This document shows positions 4,690-42,606 of a stretch of DNA of 42,606 bases, piece by piece. Every line of letters begins with the position of its first letter. Positions within the stretch are counted from its first letter, which is position 1. The position numbers and the translations under genes were made by a program. The notes below the pieces were generated by a model. It was not told the DNA's origin and did not search any database. It saw only the letters and a program-made list of their open reading frames with translations. Source of the stretch: Clostridia bacterium (GTDB lineage Bacteria; Bacillota; Clostridia; Oscillospirales; CAG-272); NCBI GenBank assembly GCA_017461385.1, contig JAFTXZ010000005.1:1-42606 (forward strand), read 5' to 3'.

Positions 4690-5040
4690 TTTGAAAAATA
4701 GGGGGGTCAATGTACCGTTTTTGGTACATAGCTTTTTGTGGGAATTAAGATTTATCAACTAAAAGTAGTCAATCGTCAACTAAAAGTGGACAAAAGTAAA
4801 CTAAAAGTAGTCAATCGTCAACTGAGAGTGGACAAAAGTAAACTAAAAGTAGTCAACAGTCAGCCCCCGTGGGGGTGGGGTGTAACTTCTTAGATGTAAG
4901 AAGTTGCACATAAGAAGTGCCACGTATAAGAAGTTATGTGTAAGAAGTTGCACATAAGAAGTGCCACGTATAAGAAGTTATGTGTAAGAAGTTGCACATA
5001 ACAAGTGCACTTTTCAGAGGCTAGATGCAAGAAGTTGCAA
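4690..5040. repeat. Composite repeat E-B-A (no R unit)
   Basis: Three blocks fill this gap. The first is an E block: TTTTGAAAAATAGGGGGG, then a hairpin TGTACC/GGTACA (4711-4728). The second is a B array of 21-bp units at 4766-4849 alternating TAGTCAATCGTCAACTAAAAG with TGGACAAAAGTAAACTAAAAG. Then a CCCCCGTGGGGG hairpin and an A array of AAGAAGT units (about 4880-5035) follow. The block is almost collinear with 7130-7640, which additionally contains an inserted R unit. Confidence 0.85.
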
Positions 5041-7129: not shown

Positions 7130-7745
7130 AGCTTCAGGTTTTGAAAAATAGGGGGGTCAATGTACCATTTTTGGTACATAGCCTTTTGTGGGAATTAAAA
7201 TTTATCAACTAAAAGTAGTCAACCGTCAACTGAGAGAACAGCCTTCCCCTTTGTTCGGAGGGGAAGGGGGCGATTCCCCTGTGAGGGGAAATGTCGCAAA
7301 GCGACAAAAGGGTTGCGCCCTGCCAAAGGGACGCTCTGCTGGTGGATGAGGTGTAGCCTCTAAAGAGGCGTCTACACAACGCAAAGTAGTCAATCGTCAA
7401 CTGAGAGTGGACAAAAGTAAACTAAAAGTAGTCAACCGTCAACCGAGAGTGGACAAAAGTAAACTAAAAGTAGTCAATCGTCAGCCTCCCGTGGGGGTGG
7501 GGTGTAACTTCTTAGATGTAAGAAGCTACACATAAGAAGTGCCACGTATAAGAAGTTATGTGTAAGAAGTTACACATAAGAAGTGCCACGTATAAGAAGT
7601 TATGTGTAAGAAGTTGCACATAAGAAGTCCTTTATTTGCTAAAAATCCTGTCAACCCCTATCTGCCCTCTCTGTCAGAAGTGATAGATAGGAAGTGATAT
7701 ATCACTAGTGATAGATAAGTAGTTATCTATAAGAAGTGATATGGA
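7130..7745. repeat. Composite repeat E-B-R-B-A
   Basis: Same order and nearly the same sequence as 4690-5040: E hairpin (7161-7178), B units, GTGGGGG hairpin and an A array (7508-7640), continued here by GATAGAT units and an ATCACTAGTGAT palindrome to about 7740. An R unit interrupts the B array at about 7240-7386. Bases 7746-7850 are AT-rich with no recognised feature. Confidence 0.85.
7240..7386 (+). repeat. R mosaic stem-loop unit, inserted in a B array
   Basis: Begins AGCCTTCCCC and ends GGCGTCTACACAACGCAAAG. Internal small stem-loops: GATTCCCC/GGGGAA, TGTCGC/GCGACA and GCCTC/GAGGC, plus the constant GGTGGATGAGGTGTAG. The matching position at 4.77 kb has an uninterrupted B array. Confidence 0.8.
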
Positions 7746-10242: not shown

Positions 10243-10271
10243 ATAGAAAGAATAAAAAAGGAGAAATCTCA

Positions 10272-10337
10272 ATGATTACCTACAACGATATAAAGCACAA
10301 TGAAAAAGAAGAATGGGTTTTGGGGTTCTCGTGTTGA
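10272..10337 (+). pseudogene. Duplicated, cut-off head of the HD-domain gene
   Basis: An ATG with AAAGGAG upstream opens a 21-codon frame whose first 36 bp (10272-10307) are identical to the first 36 bp of the intact gene at 10720. It then runs into repeat DNA and stops at TGA. The ribosome binding sites also match partly. It looks like a remnant made when the repeat block 10308-10719 was inserted with duplication of the target. Confidence 0.8.
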
Positions 10338-10719
10338 CTTCATCCGTTGAAAACGGATTTCATTGCAAAGCAATTTCATAACCGAAAATACAAACGCCTC
10401 TTTTAGAGGCTACACCTCATTCACCGTCTTTAGACGGTTCCCCTTCTGCACAAGGCACGCCCTAAAGGGTGCCCTCAAGGGGAAGGCTGTTCTCTTAGTT
10501 GACGGTTGACTACTATTAGTTGACGATTGTCTACTCTTAGTTGACGGTTGTCTACTCTTAGTTGACGGTTGTCTACTATTAGTTGACGGTTGTCTACTAT
10601 TAGTTGACGGTTGTCTACTTTGCGTTGCGTAGACGCCTCTTTAGAGGCTACACCTCATCCACCGTCTTTAGACGGTCCCCCTTGCCCCTCGAGGGGAAGG
10701 CTTAAGAAAGGAGATTTCT
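10308..10719. repeat. R-B-R repeat block between two copies of a gene head
   Basis: Contents in order: short stem-loops (CCGTT/AACGG, TTGC/GCAA), R unit in minus orientation (10395-10488), six 21-bp B units such as CTATTAGTTGACGGTTGTCTA (10492-10617), then a second R unit (about 10618-10702) ending GAGGGGAAGGCT just before the new ribosome binding site. The block lies between promoter and coding sequence, so it would be transcribed as a long structured leader. Confidence 0.85.
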
Positions 10720-11382
10720 ATGATTACCTACAACGATATAAAGCACAATGAAAAAATCAGAGCCTACATAAAAAAGGCAGACGAATCCCTTTTGGCTCTT
10801 GGCTTTACTGAGCATGGCTTCGCCCACGTTACATTAGTTGCCGAAAGAGCTGGGAAAATTCTTCAGGCGCTGGGCTATGACGAAAAGACAATTGAGCTTG
10901 CAAAAATTTCTGCCTTTATGCATGATATTGGAAATATAGTTAACCGTCGTGAGCATTCACAAAGCGGTGCAGTTATGGCTTTCAGAATACTTGATAATCT
11001 TAACCTTGAGCCAAACGATATTGCCGACATAGTAACTGCCATTGGCAATCACGACGAGGGCACGGGCGAGGCAGTTAACCCAATTTCAGCCTCCCTTATC
11101 ATAGCCGATAAAACTGACGTTAGACGCACTCGTGTTCGTGTGAAGCCAACTGATGCGTCCTTTGATATTCACGACAGAGTCAACTACTCCGTTTACGAAT
11201 CTCACCTGGACGTAGACAAAGAAGCAAAAACTATTACCCTGTGTCTGAAAATTGACACCGAAATCAGCGACGTAATGAGCTACTTTGAAATTTTCACGGA
11301 ACGAATGCTAATGTGCAAAAAGGCTGCTAACGCCCTTGGCACGCATTTCAAATTGACTATAAACGACCAAGCGATTATGTAA
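10720..11382 (+). CDS. HD-domain metal-dependent phosphohydrolase
   Basis: 220 residues. HD-superfamily ligands are visible: H32/H36 in EHGFAH, the HD pair 68-69 in FMHDIGN, later His residues in RREHS (H79) and GNHDEG, and an Asp in LIIADKTDV near 137. It probably hydrolyses a phosphate ester or nucleotide; the substrate cannot be read from sequence. ATG preceded by AAAGGAG, now supplied at the edge of an R repeat. The first 12 codons are duplicated at 10272, so the present start is a rebuilt one. Transcription ends at the bidirectional terminator 11471-11494. Confidence 0.85.
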   Translation: MITYNDIKHNEKIRAYIKKADESLLALGFTEHGFAHVTLVAERAGKILQALGYDEKTIELAKISAFMHDIGNIVNRREHSQSGAVMAFRILDNLNLEPNDIADIVTAIGNHDEGTGEAVNPISASLIIADKTDVRRTRVRVKPTDASFDIHDRVNYSVYESHLDVDKEAKTITLCLKIDTEISDVMSYFEIFTERMLMCKKAANALGTHFKLTINDQAIM

Positions 11383-11513: not shown

Positions 11514-13115
11514 TTATTCCCAAATTGTAACTTCGTCATCTACGTAGTGCCAATAATTGCCACTTGTACTTGGCTCGTTTTCACTGTACCAATATACAGG
11601 ACAATCTGAATAGTTCCATTTACTCTCCCAACCACTTGGCTTGCTTTCAGCCTCGCAGTAAATTGTAAGGTTTGTGCAGCCATCAAAGGCATAGTTTCCA
11701 ATTGTGGTTACACTATTTGGAATTACTACACTTGTAAGTCCTATGCAAATAGCAAAGGCAGAGCTTCCAATTGTGGTTACTTCATTTCCAATTGTTACAC
11801 TTGTAAGTCCTGTGCACTCAAAAAAGACAGAGTTGCCAATTGTGGTTACTTTATTTCCAATTGTTACACTTGTAAGCCCTGTGCAGCCCTCAAAGGCATA
11901 GCCTCCAATTATGGTTACACTATTTGGAATTTCAACACTTGTAAGACTTGTGCAATGTCTAAAAGCATAGTCTCCAATTGTTGTTACATTATTTGGAATT
12001 TCTATACTTGTAAGCCCTGTGCAATCATCAAAGGCACTTTTTCCAATTGTGGTTACTCTATCCCCAATTGTTACGCTTGTAAGACTTGTGCAATATCTAA
12101 AAGCATTGTCTCCAATTGTGGTTACGCTATCCCCAATTGTTACACTTGTAAGGTTCTCACAATGATAAAAGGCAGAGGAGCCGATTGTGGTAACTGTATA
12201 TTCATTACCCTTATAGCTTATCTTTCCCTTTATATTTGATGTAGTAATAGCTGCGCTTTGTCTTTCAACAGTAGTTTTTCCTTCATAAATACTGTATCTT
12301 ACACCATCATCTACAAGATAAATCTTGCCATCGCTTGCTACATCATTATTTTTACAATTCCAAACAACAGGGCAACCAGAGCGATTCCACAAACTATCCC
12401 ATCCACTTGGTAGGCTTTCTGCCTCACAGTAGATAGTAAGTCCTGTGCAACCATAAAAGGCAGAGGAGCCAATTGTTGTTACATTATTTGGAATTTCTAT
12501 ACTTATAAGTCCTGCGCAACCACTAAAGGCATAGTCTCCAATTGTGGTTACTTTATTTCCAATTGTTATGCTTGTAAGTAACGCGCAATCCCTGAAGGCA
12601 TCATTGCCAATTGTAGTTACACTATTTGGAATTTCTATACTTATAAGTCCTGTGCAACCACTAAAGGCACCATTGCTAATTGTAGTTAATCCCTTTGGAA
12701 GTGTAATACTTGTTAGATTCAAGCAATCCTTAAATCCATTTTCAACTATTTTCGTAACAGGTGCGCCCTTATACAAGGTTGGAATAACTATATTGCTTAG
12801 TTGAGTTGCATTACCGACACCTACGCCATAGGTGCCGTCGTCAAGAGGATAAAAATCAAGCTCGGCTGTTGCCTCCTCGCTCTCTTGTGAGCCATTTTCA
12901 AGCTTGCCAAGGTTTTGGCTTGTGCCGTCGGTGTAGTAAATAATAAGCTCACCGTCGACTATTTCAAAGCGCTCAACACCTCTTCCCGTCTCACCTTGCT
13001 CGCCCTTTTCGCCTTGTATTCCTTGCTCGCCCTTTTCACCTTGAGGGCCTTGCACACCCTGTCCGCAGGAAGCAAAGATAACGCAAATTAGAGCAAGACT
13101 CAATAATAAAATCAA
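11514..13115 (-). CDS. BspA-type LRR lipoprotein with collagen-like stalk; stop at codon 2
   Basis: After a hydrophobic signal and lipobox FASC comes a collagen-like Gly-X-Y run (GPQGEKGEQGIQGEKGEQ), then LRR_5 repeats of about 23 residues (consensus VTTIGxxAFxxCTxLTSVxIP) in two blocks split by a spacer (about GKIYLVDDGVRYSIYEGK). Such proteins are surface-exposed and may bind host or matrix ligands. The natural start is at 13127: a strong AAGGAG lies 7 bp before that ATG, but codon 2 is TAA where AAA is expected, since ATG-AAA-AAA-ATA-TTG would encode a normal MKKIL signal. The coordinates given start at an in-frame TTG (13115) with no good ribosome binding site. Operonic with the gene upstream, whose stop lies one base before the ATG. 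Probably weakly expressed or silenced unless rescued. Confidence 0.78.
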   Translation of the reverse strand: MILLLSLALICVIFASCGQGVQGPQGEKGEQGIQGEKGEQGETGRGVERFEIVDGELIIYYTDGTSQNLGKLENGSQESEEATAELDFYPLDDGTYGVGVGNATQLSNIVIPTLYKGAPVTKIVENGFKDCLNLTSITLPKGLTTISNGAFSGCTGLISIEIPNSVTTIGNDAFRDCALLTSITIGNKVTTIGDYAFSGCAGLISIEIPNNVTTIGSSAFYGCTGLTIYCEAESLPSGWDSLWNRSGCPVVWNCKNNDVASDGKIYLVDDGVRYSIYEGKTTVERQSAAITTSNIKGKISYKGNEYTVTTIGSSAFYHCENLTSVTIGDSVTTIGDNAFRYCTSLTSVTIGDRVTTIGKSAFDDCTGLTSIEIPNNVTTIGDYAFRHCTSLTSVEIPNSVTIIGGYAFEGCTGLTSVTIGNKVTTIGNSVFFECTGLTSVTIGNEVTTIGSSAFAICIGLTSVVIPNSVTTIGNYAFDGCTNLTIYCEAESKPSGWESKWNYSDCPVYWYSENEPSTSGNYWHYVDDEVTIWE

Positions 13116-13848: not shown

Positions 13849-14342
13849 AGCCTTCCCCTTGAGGGGAAGGGGGACCAGCTCGGCTGGTGGATGAGGTGTA
13901 GGACCACTAATCTATCCTTTTTTCGATTTCCTCAAGTATTGCCGTACAAACTCCCTTGAAGTTTTCAAGCAATTCTAAGTTGGAAAAGCGAAGCACCTTT
14001 ATATCCATTTCACCTAAATATTGGTCTCTCTCTTTGTCCTTTTGTTTATTTTCTTCCTCGTAGTGTTGTGAGCCGTCAAGCTCTACTACAAGCTTTGCCT
14101 TTGAGCAGTAAAAATCTGCTATATACTTGCCTATTACTTTTTGACGATTGAATTGATACGGTATTTTCTTTAAGAAATCATACCAAAGGTGTTTTTCTTC
14201 CTTCGTCATATTTTTCCTAAGTCCTTGAGACAAAGGGGTTAAGTGTTTATTATTTGTTTCATTCATGTTATTACGCCTCTTTTAGAGGCTACACCTCATC
14301 CACCGTCTTTAGACGGTCCCCCTTCCCCTCAAGGGGAAGGCT
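13849..14342. mobile_element. Inverted-repeat element carrying a DUF559 endonuclease gene
   Basis: A 494-bp unit. The left end is AGCCTTCCCC, a stem-loop, GGTGGATGAGGTGTAG; the right end is the inverted version, CTACACCTCATCCACC, a stem-loop, GGGGAAGGCT. Between them is a single gene (DUF559). The end sequences equal the R units scattered through the window. A truncated second copy is at 24995-25262. No clear target duplication is visible beside this copy. Mobility is inferred. Confidence 0.65.
13907..14266 (-). CDS. DUF559 / Vsr-like endonuclease-domain protein
   Basis: 119 residues, full length for the family (about 110-130). The PD-(D/E)XK-like core is intact: IADFYC with D51, then VVELDGSQH with E62, D64 and H68; an N-terminal E/K-rich helix (TKEEKHLWYDFLKK) precedes it, as in related proteins. 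DUF559 proteins are related to the very-short-patch repair nuclease fold; their substrate is mostly unknown. It is the only gene between inverted R-repeat ends, and a near-identical broken copy exists at 25.1 kb. No good ribosome binding site lies before the ATG, which sits right beside the right-hand repeat. A role in moving the repeats is an inference. Confidence 0.85.
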   Translation of the reverse strand: MNETNNKHLTPLSQGLRKNMTKEEKHLWYDFLKKIPYQFNRQKVIGKYIADFYCSKAKLVVELDGSQHYEEENKQKDKERDQYLGEMDIKVLRFSNLELLENFKGVCTAILEEIEKRID

Positions 14343-17339: not shown

Positions 17340-18046
17340 TGCACGGCAAGGATTCCATCTATGCTTCGCCCACTCTTAGTTGACAGTTGTCCTCTTTGCA
17401 TTGCGTAGACGCCTCTTTAGAGGCTACACCTCATCCACCGTCTTTAGACGGTCCCCCTTCCCCTCAAGTGGAAGGCTGTTTCTTAGTTGACGGTTGACTA
17501 CTTTCCGTTTACTTTTGTCCACTCTTAGTTGACGATTGTCTACTTTGCGTTTACTTTTGTCCACTATTAGTTGACGGTTGACTACTTTCCGTTTACTTTT
17601 GTCCACTATTAGTTGACGGTTGTCTACTTTGCATTGCGTAGACGCCTCTTTAGAGGCTACACCTCTGCGACTCACTTTGTTCCCGTGCATAAGTTCCACT
17701 AACGAAAACAAGTTTTCGAGTGTCACTTAATCCACCAGCAGAGCGTCCCTTTGGCAGGGCGCAACCCTTTTGTCGCTTTGCGACATTTCTGCACAAGGCA
17801 CGCCCTAAAGGGTGCCCTCCGAACAAAGGGGAAGGCTGTTCTCTTAGTTGACAATTGTCTACGTAAGTGGGTACTTATTATCTATCACTTCTTATAGATA
17901 ACTACTTATCTATCACTAGGTATCTATCACTAGTGATAGAGGTATATCTACAAAAAGCTCTTATGTGTTACTTCCTATGTGTTACTTCTTATGTGTTACT
18001 TCTTACATCTAACTTCTTATGTGTTACTTCTTAGATCTAAGAAGTA
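17340..18046. repeat. Composite repeat R-B-R-B-A upstream of nnr
   Basis: In minus orientation: R unit (about 17395-17476), B array of 21-bp units alternating CTATTAGTTGACGGTTGACTA with CTTTCCGTTTACTTTTGTCCA (17477-17626), then a long R unit (17627-17836) with the most modules seen in this window (CGAAAAC/GTTTTCG, ACC-less variant, TGTCGC/GCGACA, GGGCGTGCC), one B unit, and an A array of GATAGAT and TTACTTCTTA units (17872-18046). No gene is supported in this span; open frames here are only repeat translation. Confidence 0.85.
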
Positions 18047-22307: not shown

Positions 22308-22607
22308 CCTTTCGTGCGCACATCGTGGTTAGAACAAAAAGCTAGGGAAAAGCCTCAGCTAATTTTAACCTATGTGCTATCTATGTGTTTTGATTATTAC
22401 TTTCGTTTTCTTTTTAAGGTCGAAAGTGGCACCCACTTTCTTCATTTATTCGCTTTTTTAGACGCGCTTGCTACTCTGCCTTACACCAGTAAGGCGACGA
22501 CTACGCAATCGTGCCTTCTACCTCACGATCTGCTTGGTGCTCATCAATGAAGTATGGCGTGTACTTATCGTGCCTTTCGTTCGCACATCGTGGTTAGAAC
22601 AAAAAGC
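22308..22607 (-). repeat. Family F unit bounded by 35-bp direct repeats
   Basis: Boundary copies at 22308-22342 and 22573-22607 read GCTTTTTGTTCTAACCAC then a variable step and GCGNACGAAAGG on minus. The interior matches 36366-36642 (GGCACGATAAGTACACGCC, GAGCACCAAGCAGAT, TCGACCTTAAAAAGAAA). The boundary copy nearest the gene supplies the GAAAGGAG ribosome binding site of citrate synthase. Confidence 0.75.
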
Positions 22608-22609
22608 CA

Positions 22610-22705
22610 AGCCTTCCCCTTTGCTTGGAGGGCACCCTTTAGGGCGTGCCTTGTGCAGAAGGGGGCGATTCCCCTGTGAGAGGAATCGCCTCAAGGGGAA
22701 GGCTT
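22610..22705 (-). repeat. R mosaic stem-loop unit in the citrate synthase leader
   Basis: Ends are inverted: AGCCTTCCCC at the left, AGGGGAAGGCT at the right. Internal stems GGGCACCC-type, GCGATTCCCC/AATCGC. It follows directly on the F unit boundary. Confidence 0.75.
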
Positions 22706-24994: not shown

Positions 24995-25262
24995 AGCCTT
25001 CCCCTTTGCTCGGAGGGGAAGGGGGACCGTCTAAAGACGGTGGATGAGGTGTAGGACCACTAATCTATCCTTTTTTCGATTTCCTCAAGTATTGCCGTAC
25101 AAACTCCCTTGAAGTTTTCAAGCATTTCTAAATTGGAAAATCGAAGCACCTTTGTATCCATTTCACCTAAATATTGGTCTCTCTCTTTGTCCTTTTGTTT
25201 ATATTCTTCTTCATAGTGCTAGGAGCCATCAAGCTCCACTAAAAGCTTAGCTTGTGCAGAAA
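24995..25262. mobile_element. Truncated copy of the DUF559 inverted-repeat element
   Basis: Left R end AGCCTTCCCC, stem ACCGTC/GACGGT, GGTGGATGAGGTGTAG, then the 3' half of a DUF559 gene. The right half, including the other inverted end, is missing; the remnant stops beside the walJ stop codon. A trace of the R module TTGTGCAGA is seen at the broken edge. Confidence 0.8.
25060..25260 (-). pseudogene. DUF559 pseudogene (5' truncated, internal stop)
   Basis: The C-terminal part of the 13907-14266 protein, from about its residue 57 to the stop, is matched with only a few substitutions (for example I90 to T, L100 to M). The catalytic segment reads VELDGS-stop-HY: the CAA codon after GS has become TAG. 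The first half, including the D51 motif, is missing. Near identity to the intact copy argues for a fairly recent duplication. Confidence 0.88.
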
Positions 25263-28209: not shown

Positions 28210-28670
28210 ACTAAAGGTAGCCTTCCACTTGAGGCGATTCCCCTGTGAGGGCACCCTTTAGGGCGTGCCTTGTGCAGAAATGTCGCAAAGCGACAAAAGG
28301 GTTCCTGTTTTGGAAAAAAAGGGGGACCGTCTAAAGACGGTGGATTAAGTGACACTCGAAAACTTGTTTTCGTTAGTGGAACTTATGCACGGGAACAAAG
28401 TGAGTCGCAGAGGTGTAGCCTCTAAAGAGGCGTCTACGCAACGCAAAGTTGCGCACCGTCAACTAATAGTGGACAAAAGTAAACGGATAGTTGACAAAAT
28501 GCGAAAATTCCTCTCTACGATTCGTAGAATTTTTCAAGGTTTTGAAAAAATAGGGGGGCAATGTACCATTTTTGGTACATAGCTTTTTTGAAAAAATTAA
28601 TTTTGCTTGCAGGTTTGCTAAAAAACAGACCCCAATGTCCCATTTTTGGTACATTGGAATTTGCAAAAAT
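28210..28670 (+). repeat. Composite repeat R-B-E
   Basis: R unit from AGCCTTCC at 28219 to about 28446, containing GGGCGTGCC, TGTCGC/GCGACA, ACCGTC/GACGGT, CGAAAAC/GTTTTCG and GCCTC/GAGGC modules. A short B part follows (28455-28490), then an E block: GCGAAAATTCCTCTCTACGA, hairpin TGTACCATTTTTGGTACA (28562-28579) and a degenerate second hairpin (28635-28654). Very similar to 42.10-42.58 kb. It lies between ymdB and pncB; bases 28671-28735 show nothing further. Confidence 0.85.
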
Positions 28671-32371: not shown

Positions 32372-32945
32372 CCAATGTACCAAAAATGGTACATTGAAGC
32401 CTGTTTTTTTACAAGTCCTTGTAGATTCTACGAATAGTAGAGAGGAATTTTCGCATTTTGTCAACTATCCGTTTACTTTTGTCCACTTTTAGTTGACGAT
32501 TGACTACTATTAGTTGACGGTTGTCTACTCTTAGTTGACGATTGACTACTTTGCGTTGCGTAAACGCCCTTTAGAGGCTACACCTCATCCACCGTCTTAA
32601 GACGGTCCCCCTTCCCCTCCAAACAAAGGGGAAGGCTGTTCTCTTAGTTGACGATTGCTTGCGAAAAGGGGTACTTGTTATCTATCATTAGTGATATATC
32701 ATTTCCTATCTATCACTAGATATCTATCACTAGTGAAAGAGGCAGACGTGAAAATGTGGCTTTTTGCGTTGCAAAAAGAACTTCATTCACAACGATGTTG
32801 AGAAGAGGCTTTTTGCTGAGGCAAAAAGAACTTCGGCGAGCCTTATGCTTGCAAGCAGACAACGGCTCTTGCCTCGTTTACGAACTTCATTTGTGGCAAA
32901 GCCACAAAGAGAAGTGAGAATCTCTCAACCCCCGACAAAAAGAAA
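32372..32945 (-). repeat. Composite repeat E-B-R-B-A plus small hairpins
   Basis: Hairpin TGTACC-AAAAAT-GGTACA (32376-32393), the E tail with TACGAATAGTAGAGAGGAAT, B units (about 32465-32545), an R unit (32550-32637), one B unit, and an A array with ATCACTAGTG (32668-32745). From 32755 to 32930 several small stem-loops occur (CTTTTTGC/GCAAAAAG twice, TTGTGGC/GCCACAA) resembling those at 10.31 kb. No gene is supported. Confidence 0.8.
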
Positions 32946-36330: not shown

Positions 36331-36677
36331 GCTTTTTGCTCTAACCACTATATGCGCACAAAAGGCACGATAAGTACACGCCGAGCTTCATTGGTGAGCA
36401 CCAAGCAGATAGTGAGGTAGAATTTGTGAGTGCGTACTCGTCGCCAGGGGTTCCCCGAAGCGAAAAATGAGCTTTGGGGGTTTCCGTCGCCGTACTTTGT
36501 ACTGCAGAGAAGCAGTCGCAAATAAAAAAGCGGAAAATGAGGAGAGTGAGAATCACTCTCGACCTTAAAAAGAAAGCAAGAATAAAGCAAAAATATAATT
36601 GGAAAGCACTAATGCGTATGGCACGATATGGCTAAATTACTCGCTTTTTGCTCTAACCACTATATGCGCACAAAAAA
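36331..36677 (+). repeat. Family F unit bounded by 35-bp direct repeats
   Basis: Boundary copies GCTTTTTGCTCTAACCAC then TATATGCGCACAAAA at 36331-36365 and 36643-36677. Interior motifs are shared with 22343-22572 (inverse orientation) and partly with 20600-20835. Short stem-loops AGAGTGA/TCACTCT lie inside. No gene in the span. Confidence 0.8.
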
Positions 36678-41965: not shown

Positions 41966-42606
41966 GTTAGATGTAAGAAGTTACACATAAGAAGCAACAC
42001 CTGTAAGAAACTAGATGTAAGAAGTTACACATAAGAAGTCCCATTTTTTACAAAAAGCCTAATTTCCATGCTTGCCTCTATCACTAGTGATAGGGTAGAA
42101 CAGCCTTCCACTTGAGGCGATTCCCCTAGTAGGGGAAATGTCGCAAAGCGACAAAAGGGTTCCTGTTTTGGAAAAAAAGGGGAACCGTCTAAAGACGGTG
42201 GATTAAGTGACACTCGAAAACTTGTTTTCGTTAGTGGAACTTATGCCCTAAAGGACTAACTTCGTGTCGCAGGGAACAAAGTGAGTCGCAGAGGTGTAGC
42301 CTCTAAAAGAGGCGTCTACGCAATGCAAAGTAGACAACCGTCAACTAAAAGTGGACAAAAGTAAACGCAAAGTAGTCAATCGTCAACTAAGAGTAGTCAA
42401 AAGTAAACGGATAGTTGACAAAATGCGAAAATTCCTCTCTACGATTCGTAGAATCTACAAGGGTTTATTAAAAAACAGGCTTCAATGTACCATTTTTGGT
42501 ACATAGCTTTTTTGCAAAAATCAACCTTTTCTTCAAATTTGCTAAAAATGTAGGGTCAATGTAACATTTTTGGTACATAGGGAAACGCAGAGTTGCATAA
42601 AGGAAA
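41966..42606 (+). repeat. Composite repeat A-R-B-E
   Basis: A array of AAGAAGTTACACAT units (41966-42045) and ATCACTAGTGAT (42080-42092). An R unit follows (42102-42333), with the same modules as 28219-28446 plus an extra CTAAAGGACTAACTTCGTG segment. B units come next (42334-42415), then an E block with CGAAAATTCCTCTCTACGA and hairpins at 42486-42503 and 42560-42577. The window ends inside repeat DNA. Bases 41797-41965 are AT-rich without a clear feature. Confidence 0.85.

Follow-up and report, generated by a model that had tools for sequence, protein, structure and literature searches.

A 494-bp unit at positions 13849–14342 of the window, by which we mean the whole stretch of 42,606 nucleotides that was analysed (contig C14 of a 1.54-Mb Clostridia genome, 75% complete), consists of one intact DUF559 gene framed by two inverted copies of a two-hairpin repeat, here termed R, and is best explained as a minimal mobile element. 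Comparison of related genomes gives good support to the view that R-DUF559-R' units, gene-less R-R' pairs and single R units have moved, as judged from their sequences. All three forms are found bounded by direct repeats of host DNA of about 20–134 bp, and wherever an empty site allowed a test, the repeated segment was present there only once.

R end 1 (13849–13901, plus strand) is composed of hairpin 1 (CCTTCCCC/GGGGAAGG), hairpin 2 (ACCAGC/GCTGGT) and the tail GGATGAGGTGTAG. R end 2 lies on the minus strand at 14267–14342, with its core at 14289–14342, and includes a third small hairpin on the inner side (GCCTCTAAAAGAGGC). The DUF559 (PF04480) nuclease ORF of 119 residues occupies the minus strand between both ends (13907–14266). 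Aligned as inverted repeats, the two ends of the unit score 35.5, against a maximum of 14 for shuffled flanks of the same kind. The nuclease matches PF04480 at 2.4e-31 (108.2 bits, with a curated cut-off of 20.6) over 105 of the 109 profile positions; MTES_1575 is also matched, below the cut-off of that family, and the Pfam search returned no further family at E ≤ 0.001. Neither a Y1 transposase, a DDE transposase nor a reverse transcriptase is encoded in the 494-bp unit according to its ORF list and the Pfam search, DUF559 being alone there. Residues E24, D51, E62, D64, H68 and D77 of DUF559 are invariant in two alignments (A1, 23 rows; A4, 47 rows), and the catalytic residues of a putative Vsr/EDxHD-type nuclease may be among these acidic residues and the histidine. 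The solved relatives found by profile match are the endonuclease-like 3hrl (2.3e-29) and, weakly, 3r3p (6.3e-5), a ‘Mobile intron protein’ by its title that we take to be I-Bth0305I. Among the best 80 kept of the matches listed, the named relatives of the window nuclease come mostly from metagenome-assembled Clostridia of ruminant guts, and the closest protein among the matches listed, from roe deer, is 91% identical.

A second, decayed unit of the window comprises an R end at 24995–25054 (plus strand) and, behind it, a DUF559 remnant at 25055–25262 (minus strand), with 25039–25256 being 93% identical to 13886–14103. The remnant covers profile positions 49–108 and is interrupted by one in-frame TAG. 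The original prediction, which described one intact DUF559 gene between inverse R ends and a truncated second copy, is accurate on both points. No DUF559 locus beyond these two was found in the window's genome at its 75% completeness. The window's own DUF559 unit displays no target duplication, its direct-repeat score of 9.0 being equal to the median of random placements.

The association of DUF559 with paired R ends extends well beyond the window. Inverted ends were called at a score of at least 15, with stricter gap scoring because cheap gaps overran the borders, and the same test displaced by 800–1200 bp served as control. PF04480 is patchily distributed in the relatives (47 of 96 genomes, with 0–8 matches per genome). 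Inverted ends are present at 57 of the 80 DUF559 loci of relatives that hold full or near-full PF04480 matches and at least 200 nt on both flanks, and at none of 64 displaced controls. Similarly, 50 of the 77 usable loci (of 80) from named genomes pass, or 48 of 75 once two loci shared with the former set are left out, against 0/60 controls. Some of the failing loci keep R on one side. The expectation that this DUF559 subclade would occur mostly with R ends is thus borne out by 57 of 80 loci and 48 of 75 further ones. In other groups, represented by 20 loci picked from the matches listed in a plasmid collection, 13 pass and none of 20 displaced controls does (maximum 14.5). Passing loci outside the Clostridia relatives belong to the alpha-Proteobacteria, Deinococcota and Cyanobacteriota; two of four loci titled Chloroflexota also pass, these being metagenome bins in which a misplaced contig is possible. 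Paired ends are missing at the other seven of the 20 loci, in Photobacterium, E. coli, two Synechocystis, one Azospirillum, one Picosynechococcus and Neisseria. At the Neisseria locus (L241) DUF559 lies between two direct 110-bp repeats with other palindromes, rather than between inverted ends.

The build of the R ends was established on 96 ends, belonging to 48 loci at which the inverted repeats are strong, from which ten loci of another build and 12 more ends failing the outer-hairpin/tail pattern were removed, leaving 64 ends, 53 of them distinct, all with a pyrimidine-rich outer strand. The hairpins were parsed sequence by sequence because their position in the alignment shifts from class to class; an RNAalifold consensus, which recovered only part of hairpin 1, was dropped. 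An outer hairpin of 7–9 bp is present in 53 of the 53 distinct ends, a feature favoured by this selection. The inner hairpin, which the selection does not favour, reaches at least 4 bp in 51 of 53, against 46% of shuffled sequences, and its stems display 34 different sequences among these ends, so that it is the pairing and not the sequence that is conserved. Three inner forms recur, namely TGGC..GACGGA, TGTC..GACTGA and GGGACC..GGTGGA; the first is found nearly letter-identical in Novosphingobium and the third in Sphingomonas and Sphingobium. R is not recognised as an Rfam RNA, no Rfam match being obtained in the window at the gathering threshold.

The hairpins are followed by a tail, GGATGAGG or GGAGGG-like, that resembles the 3' strand of hairpin 1 read in reverse. 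Among 16 end types seen at least twice, the agreement between the tail and the reversed strand is 0.684, against 0.492 when permuted, and none of 3000 permutations is as high, with the qualification that related end types are not independent; the direct match reaches 0.495 against 0.449 (p 0.05). Such a mirrored purine tail is what a purine-motif triplex would need, and, as the tail mirrors the hairpin-1 3' strand, it may be a folded structure of three strands by which the R ends are recognised. The tail of the window's R class is closed by GTAG (13898–13901), in most copies ahead of the third small hairpin. Among 40 sampled gene-less R units, 32 have GTAG close to the tail, and the motif is absent at the foot of the outer and inner hairpins. 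Its position at the tail suggests that R may be connected with GTAG repeats and RAYTs.

R class and nuclease subclade vary together, a relation that the original prediction had proposed to test. Both ends of a unit are of the same class at 50 of 64 loci, against a shuffled mean of 19.3 and maximum of 30. On the nuclease tree, which is short (114 columns) and poorly resolved, R class changes 12 times compared with a shuffled mean of 48.7 and minimum of 42 (n = 106); this count leaves out 20 rows of the class ‘other’, and their inclusion gives 23 against 66.4. Between genomes, a shared R class goes with a gain of 11.0 points in nuclease similarity, while shuffling labels within genomes gives a mean of 6.3 and only one of 500 shuffles is as high, a comparison to which only the seven genomes with more than one class contribute. 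Thus, the covariation of end sequence and subclade holds both on the tree and within genomes.

Aligned insertion sites, the comparison proposed with the original prediction, reveal both filled and empty states. The site of the window unit is contiguous in G023, where a short spacer without R is found, and in G005 it is occupied by another repeat, of the kind found at 22493–22607. The latter is part of an inverted repeat of about 115 bp (window 22493–22607 and 36331–36445) that represents a second dispersed repeat family. Duplications were sought at 156 distinct DUF559 loci with 250-nt flanks, requiring a direct-repeat score of at least 20 adjoining both R ends. Direct repeats stand beside both ends at 14 loci and 142 are without them (16/158 before double entries were merged); 35 of the 51 direct repeats scoring at least 20 were tandem R copies or lay off the ends and were excluded. 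Clean duplications measure 39–111 bp (e.g. 39, 42, 67, 94 and 104). The repeats of L017, L029, L044 and L088 (131 bp) contain R-like pieces, the repeat of L006 (56 bp) falls outside the flank filter, and those of L076 (134 bp), L136 (36 bp) and L110 (30 bp) satisfy the rule partly. By eye, no target motif was seen at the duplication borders.

Three of these loci have empty counterparts. The joined flanks of L088 cross the junction in G021 and G014, extending 119 and 182 nt beyond it, and those of L077 and L068 cross it in G010 and G001, extending 28 and 15 nt beyond. No second copy of the duplicated segment exists at the empty sites of L088, L077 and L068, where it is single-copy. The L076 segment is likewise single-copy in five of five relatives, in which the junction is hardly spanned. 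L068, L077 and L078 are apparently one old insertion in three species, with an open DUF559 frame and duplication copies that are still alike.

A gene end compared in five species displays different states of one site. The gene-side flank is common to all five and the far flank is shared only by G013 and G004. In G012 the 42-nt gene end is present once and R is missing; in G001 two 42-nt copies enclose one R; and G010 (L214, contig C34) has four tandem R units alternating with five copies of this host segment. In G013 two copies enclose an R-DUF559-R' unit, beyond which come an R that belongs to a different class, a third copy and once more an R of that different class, and in G004 an R-broken DUF559-R' unit has a copy on each side, the second identified by eye. 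The L214 array looks like one site that was hit or amplified repeatedly.

The same comparisons bear on the reading that DUF559 was domesticated for mismatch repair (Vsr-like) or defence and that the R ends are terminators or attenuators. A precedent for such a role is provided by Caulobacter VsrA, a protein with a DUF559 domain that, in the part of the source available (PMC12907096), is tied to a cytosine methylase and is required for a DNA damage response in methylase-less cells. A domesticated gene is nevertheless difficult to reconcile with 0–8 matches per genome, empty sites, long duplications and decayed copies. Its placement is also against it, since some units sit between genes of one pathway, such as sufB and sufC, paaD and paaZ, or transhydrogenase genes. 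We regard this reading as very improbable.

Apart from the two DUF559 units, the window holds about nine R units or fragments of R that carry no gene, so that the ‘about ten’ of the original prediction was a fair estimate, several of them being interrupted by other repeats. They are located at 7240–7371 (plus strand, interrupted by another repeat), 10394–10488 (minus, with an internal insert), 10632–10702 (minus), 17409–17477 (minus), 17640–17837 (minus, interrupted, by eye), 22610–22704 (no strand assigned; a partial R-like unit, by eye, with outer hairpin sequence and inserts), 28219–28450 (plus, interrupted), 32563–32637 (minus) and 42102–42320 (plus, interrupted). Each looks like one R end and not like paired ends. 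In the window's genome, 34 matches to the R query are among those listed at E ≤ 0.001, a count that takes in fragments as well as both ends of the unit itself. The cluster at 10394–10702 is enclosed by a direct repeat of 53–55 nt on the plus strand, with the left copy at 10253–10307, 86 nt from the first R, and the right copy at 10703–10755, containing the start of the ORF at 10720. This repeat scores 41.5; for random placements the 95th percentile is 13 and the 99th is 73, the latter value being high because the window holds tandem arrays of its own. Arrays of GTCAACTAAAAGTAGTC-like units of about 21/42 nt (4757–4862, 7378–7483, 10498–10669, 17465–17678, 32429–32600 and 42300–42445) often adjoin R units. 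The palindrome AATGTACCATTTTTGGTACAT recurs within larger repeated units at 4695, 7145, 28546, 28620, 42470 and 42544, and the ORF at 11514–13115 (minus strand) contains tandem coding repeats of 69 nt.

Gene-less R units possess duplications of their own. For 40 R units picked among the matches listed, mostly full-length and none at a listed DUF559 place, direct repeats scoring at least 18 within 140-nt flanks were found at 20, of which 13 are close to both sides. The corresponding controls give 2/78 for shifted positions and 7/1560 for mismatched flank pairs. With 200-nt flanks 23 of the 40 reach a score of 18, while in a cluster scan of the DUF559-locus sequences just 2 of 31 gene-less R clusters had long direct repeats. 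The duplications are 20–109 bp long and 81% to 100% identical. On the hairpin-1 side the gap between the repeat and the start of R is 0–7 nt in 19 of the 20, and this side looks like the defined end of R; on the tail side the distance is 0–125 nt, counted from where the BLAST match stops and possibly including part of R. Three of the 20 (L263, L264 and L267) are gene-less two-ended R-R' pairs, and L248 contains a second R. The predicted relation between an autonomous element and its non-autonomous derivatives is therefore upheld in part: the three R-R' pairs with direct repeats speak for it, whereas single R ends that bear their own duplications depart from it.

The regular position of the duplication on the hairpin-1 side also bears on a model without a dedicated enzyme, in which replication stalled at hairpins and template switching would copy R together with a tandem duplication of the target, DUF559 being a passenger. 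Duplications produced by template switching are similarly long and variable, and tandem R-repeat arrays do occur (L214). We consider this model improbable nonetheless: it is one defined module that spreads, with a gap of 0–7 nt to the repeat on its hairpin-1 side in 19 of 20 units, R correlates with the nuclease, and the DUF559 frame is open at most of the places listed.

The duplicated R units are unevenly distributed over the genomes. Of the units sampled, they amount to 5/5 in G005, 7/10 in G016, 3/7 in both G000 and G023, 1/2 in G002 and 1/1 in G019, with 0/5 in G011, 0/2 in G012 and 0/1 in G004. The R matches listed number 34 in G000, 29 in G023, 16 in G005 and 12 in G016, and one repeat of G005 is identical at 50 of 50 positions. 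No DUF559 was found in G005, a genome that is 76% complete; G016 (97% complete) has a single DUF559 gene, L074, whose ends belong to another R class. An abundance of R units in genomes that lack DUF559 had been named as an outcome contrary to the prediction, and G005, with 16 R matches, five of five sampled R units duplicated and 76% completeness, provides such a case in part. G000 and G023 carry the matching nuclease and a Y1 transposase too. In the profile screen, Y1_Tnp is present in 12 of the 29 genomes of the genus, including G000 and G023, and absent from G016 and G005, and RVT_1 is present in three of the 29, including G005, and absent from G000, G023 and G016.

This distribution lends weight to the reading that R is moved by another enzyme, Y1 (RAYT-like) or otherwise, with DUF559 being cargo or a parasite dwelling in R. 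Most of the long R duplications are found in G005 and G016, which have no detected DUF559 and a DUF559 of another class, respectively; single R units possess their own duplications; and Y1_Tnp occurs in the genus, with GTAG preceding the third hairpin of the window's class. Against another enzyme, R class tracks the nuclease subclade, also within genomes, and an inverted R...R' arrangement would not be expected from simple homing into a single R. As to Y1 in particular, the R units of G016 and G005 are not explained by an enzyme that was found in neither genome. On balance we hold this reading to be possible, though rather unlikely.

The endonuclease domain of the R2 retrotransposon is restriction-like. 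According to the excerpted source (PMC3636483), R2 depends on this endonuclease domain of its own. A further reading is a SINE-like process in which R RNA would be copied by target-primed reverse transcription through a host reverse transcriptase. A small structured repeat with long variable duplications would be in keeping with it, and G005 does have an RVT_1 protein. It is opposed by the restriction of RVT_1 to three of 29 genomes, by its absence from the R-bearing G000, G023 and G016, and by the lack of a reverse transcriptase in the window unit, and we judge it extremely improbable. In G016, which is R-rich and 97% complete, a reverse transcriptase and Y1 were both rejected as drivers, each being absent. 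In G000 and G023, where Y1 is present, it may still be the driver.

The reading that we favour is that the DUF559 nuclease drives the movement of R, which on sequence comparison we hold to be probable. The original prediction of a mobile element driven by its nuclease thus stands as regards movement, which in view of the comparison we hold to be nearly certain, and as regards the nuclease as mover it is still something we infer. Our confidence is lowered by the concentration of duplicated R units in G005 and G016 together with the GTAG at the tail, and by the smaller share of duplicated R units (3/7 each) in G000 and G023, which have the matching nuclease. According to the proposed mechanism, the DUF559 protein would recognise its own R end and nick the target strands tens of bp apart; alternatively, a single nick would be followed by repair synthesis switching to a copy of R and back. 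The intervening span would be duplicated when the gap is filled or when the new strand rejoins the target upstream of the nick. Single R units, being non-autonomous, would travel as passengers of the R-DUF559-R' machinery, served perhaps also by nucleases that were later lost or are not yet sequenced. The nuclease by itself does not explain how R is copied. More tentatively, and with a little more doubt than belief, we propose that DUF559-R constitutes a mobile class that crosses phyla, defined by one Vsr-like nuclease, one-ended copying of two-hairpin repeats and target duplications of 20–134 bp.

Hairpin repeats fill the intergenic spaces of many bacteria, and DUF559, with about 120 residues and a distribution over several phyla, is a testable candidate for an enzyme that spreads them. 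The CGTC-tagged REP superfamily (Di Nocera 2013) is described, in the part of the source available, as lacking a dedicated transposase and as having an 8–9 bp stem beginning with AT, a CGTC tag before and a CCA tail after the hairpin (PMC3733652). One R form is similar, its reversed hairpin 2 reading CGTC-stem-loop-stem with CCA within a few bases. Such a CGTC...CCA hairpin lies near 69 of 191 DUF559 genes (three loci counted twice) against 2 of 150 controls, and this is not the R form of the window. In contrast to CGTC-REPs, R stems are mostly of 4–8 bp, few start with AT, an extra outer hairpin is present, and other R forms bear AGTC or CCACCG..CGGTCC; the flanks of the Neisseria DUF559 locus contain no CGTC pair, which counts against the link. 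If the proposal is true, DUF559-R would provide some, at least, of the orphan palindromic repeats of CGTC type with the enzyme that they lack.

The REPtron/REPIN system (RAYT, TnpA-REP) is similar to DUF559-R in its short hairpin repeats, scattered and also found alone, in the enzyme gene lying between inverted copies and in the repeat class following the enzyme class. In contrast, the enzyme here is a DUF559 nuclease and not the Y1 (HUH) transposase by which REPtrons are defined, and R has two hairpins, a purine tail and long direct repeats around its insertions. The GTAG that marks the hairpin foot in REPtrons is located before the third small hairpin in the window's R class and not at the foot of the outer or inner hairpin, a possible correspondence. 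With EDxHD homing endonucleases the window nuclease shares the match to 3r3p (6.3e-5); unlike them, DUF559 units lie between hairpins at many different flanks and not at a single allelic site, and no intron was seen. Gene-less R-R' pairs with direct repeats (L263, L264 and L267) beside gene-bearing copies recall MITEs and their parent IS, from which DUF559-R differs by single R ends with direct repeats of their own, by a unit without a DDE transposase and by variable repeats of 20–134 bp. IS200/IS605 elements similarly have hairpins near their ends and are not known to leave a target duplication, whereas the R unit is without a TnpA Y1 and yet is associated with long direct repeats. Variable target duplications and short non-autonomous units are features of SINEs and LINEs, but the R unit is without a reverse transcriptase and RVT_1 is present in only three of the 29 genomes.

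The nearest link to mobility found in the literature is a segment of Legionella DNA carrying both a transposase and DUF559, described in the accessible part of the source as a recombination hotspot (PMC12308824). A description of DUF559 as a mobile element of its own was not found in the open PMC subset, and within that subset the comparison points to DUF559-R as a categorically new kind of mobile DNA. If true, a nuclease of about 120 residues that places a DNA module of 50–70 nt would be relevant as a tool and to the evolution of genomes. No bacterial transposon known to us makes duplications of such length and variability, and therefore the chemistry behind them should be new or newly combined.
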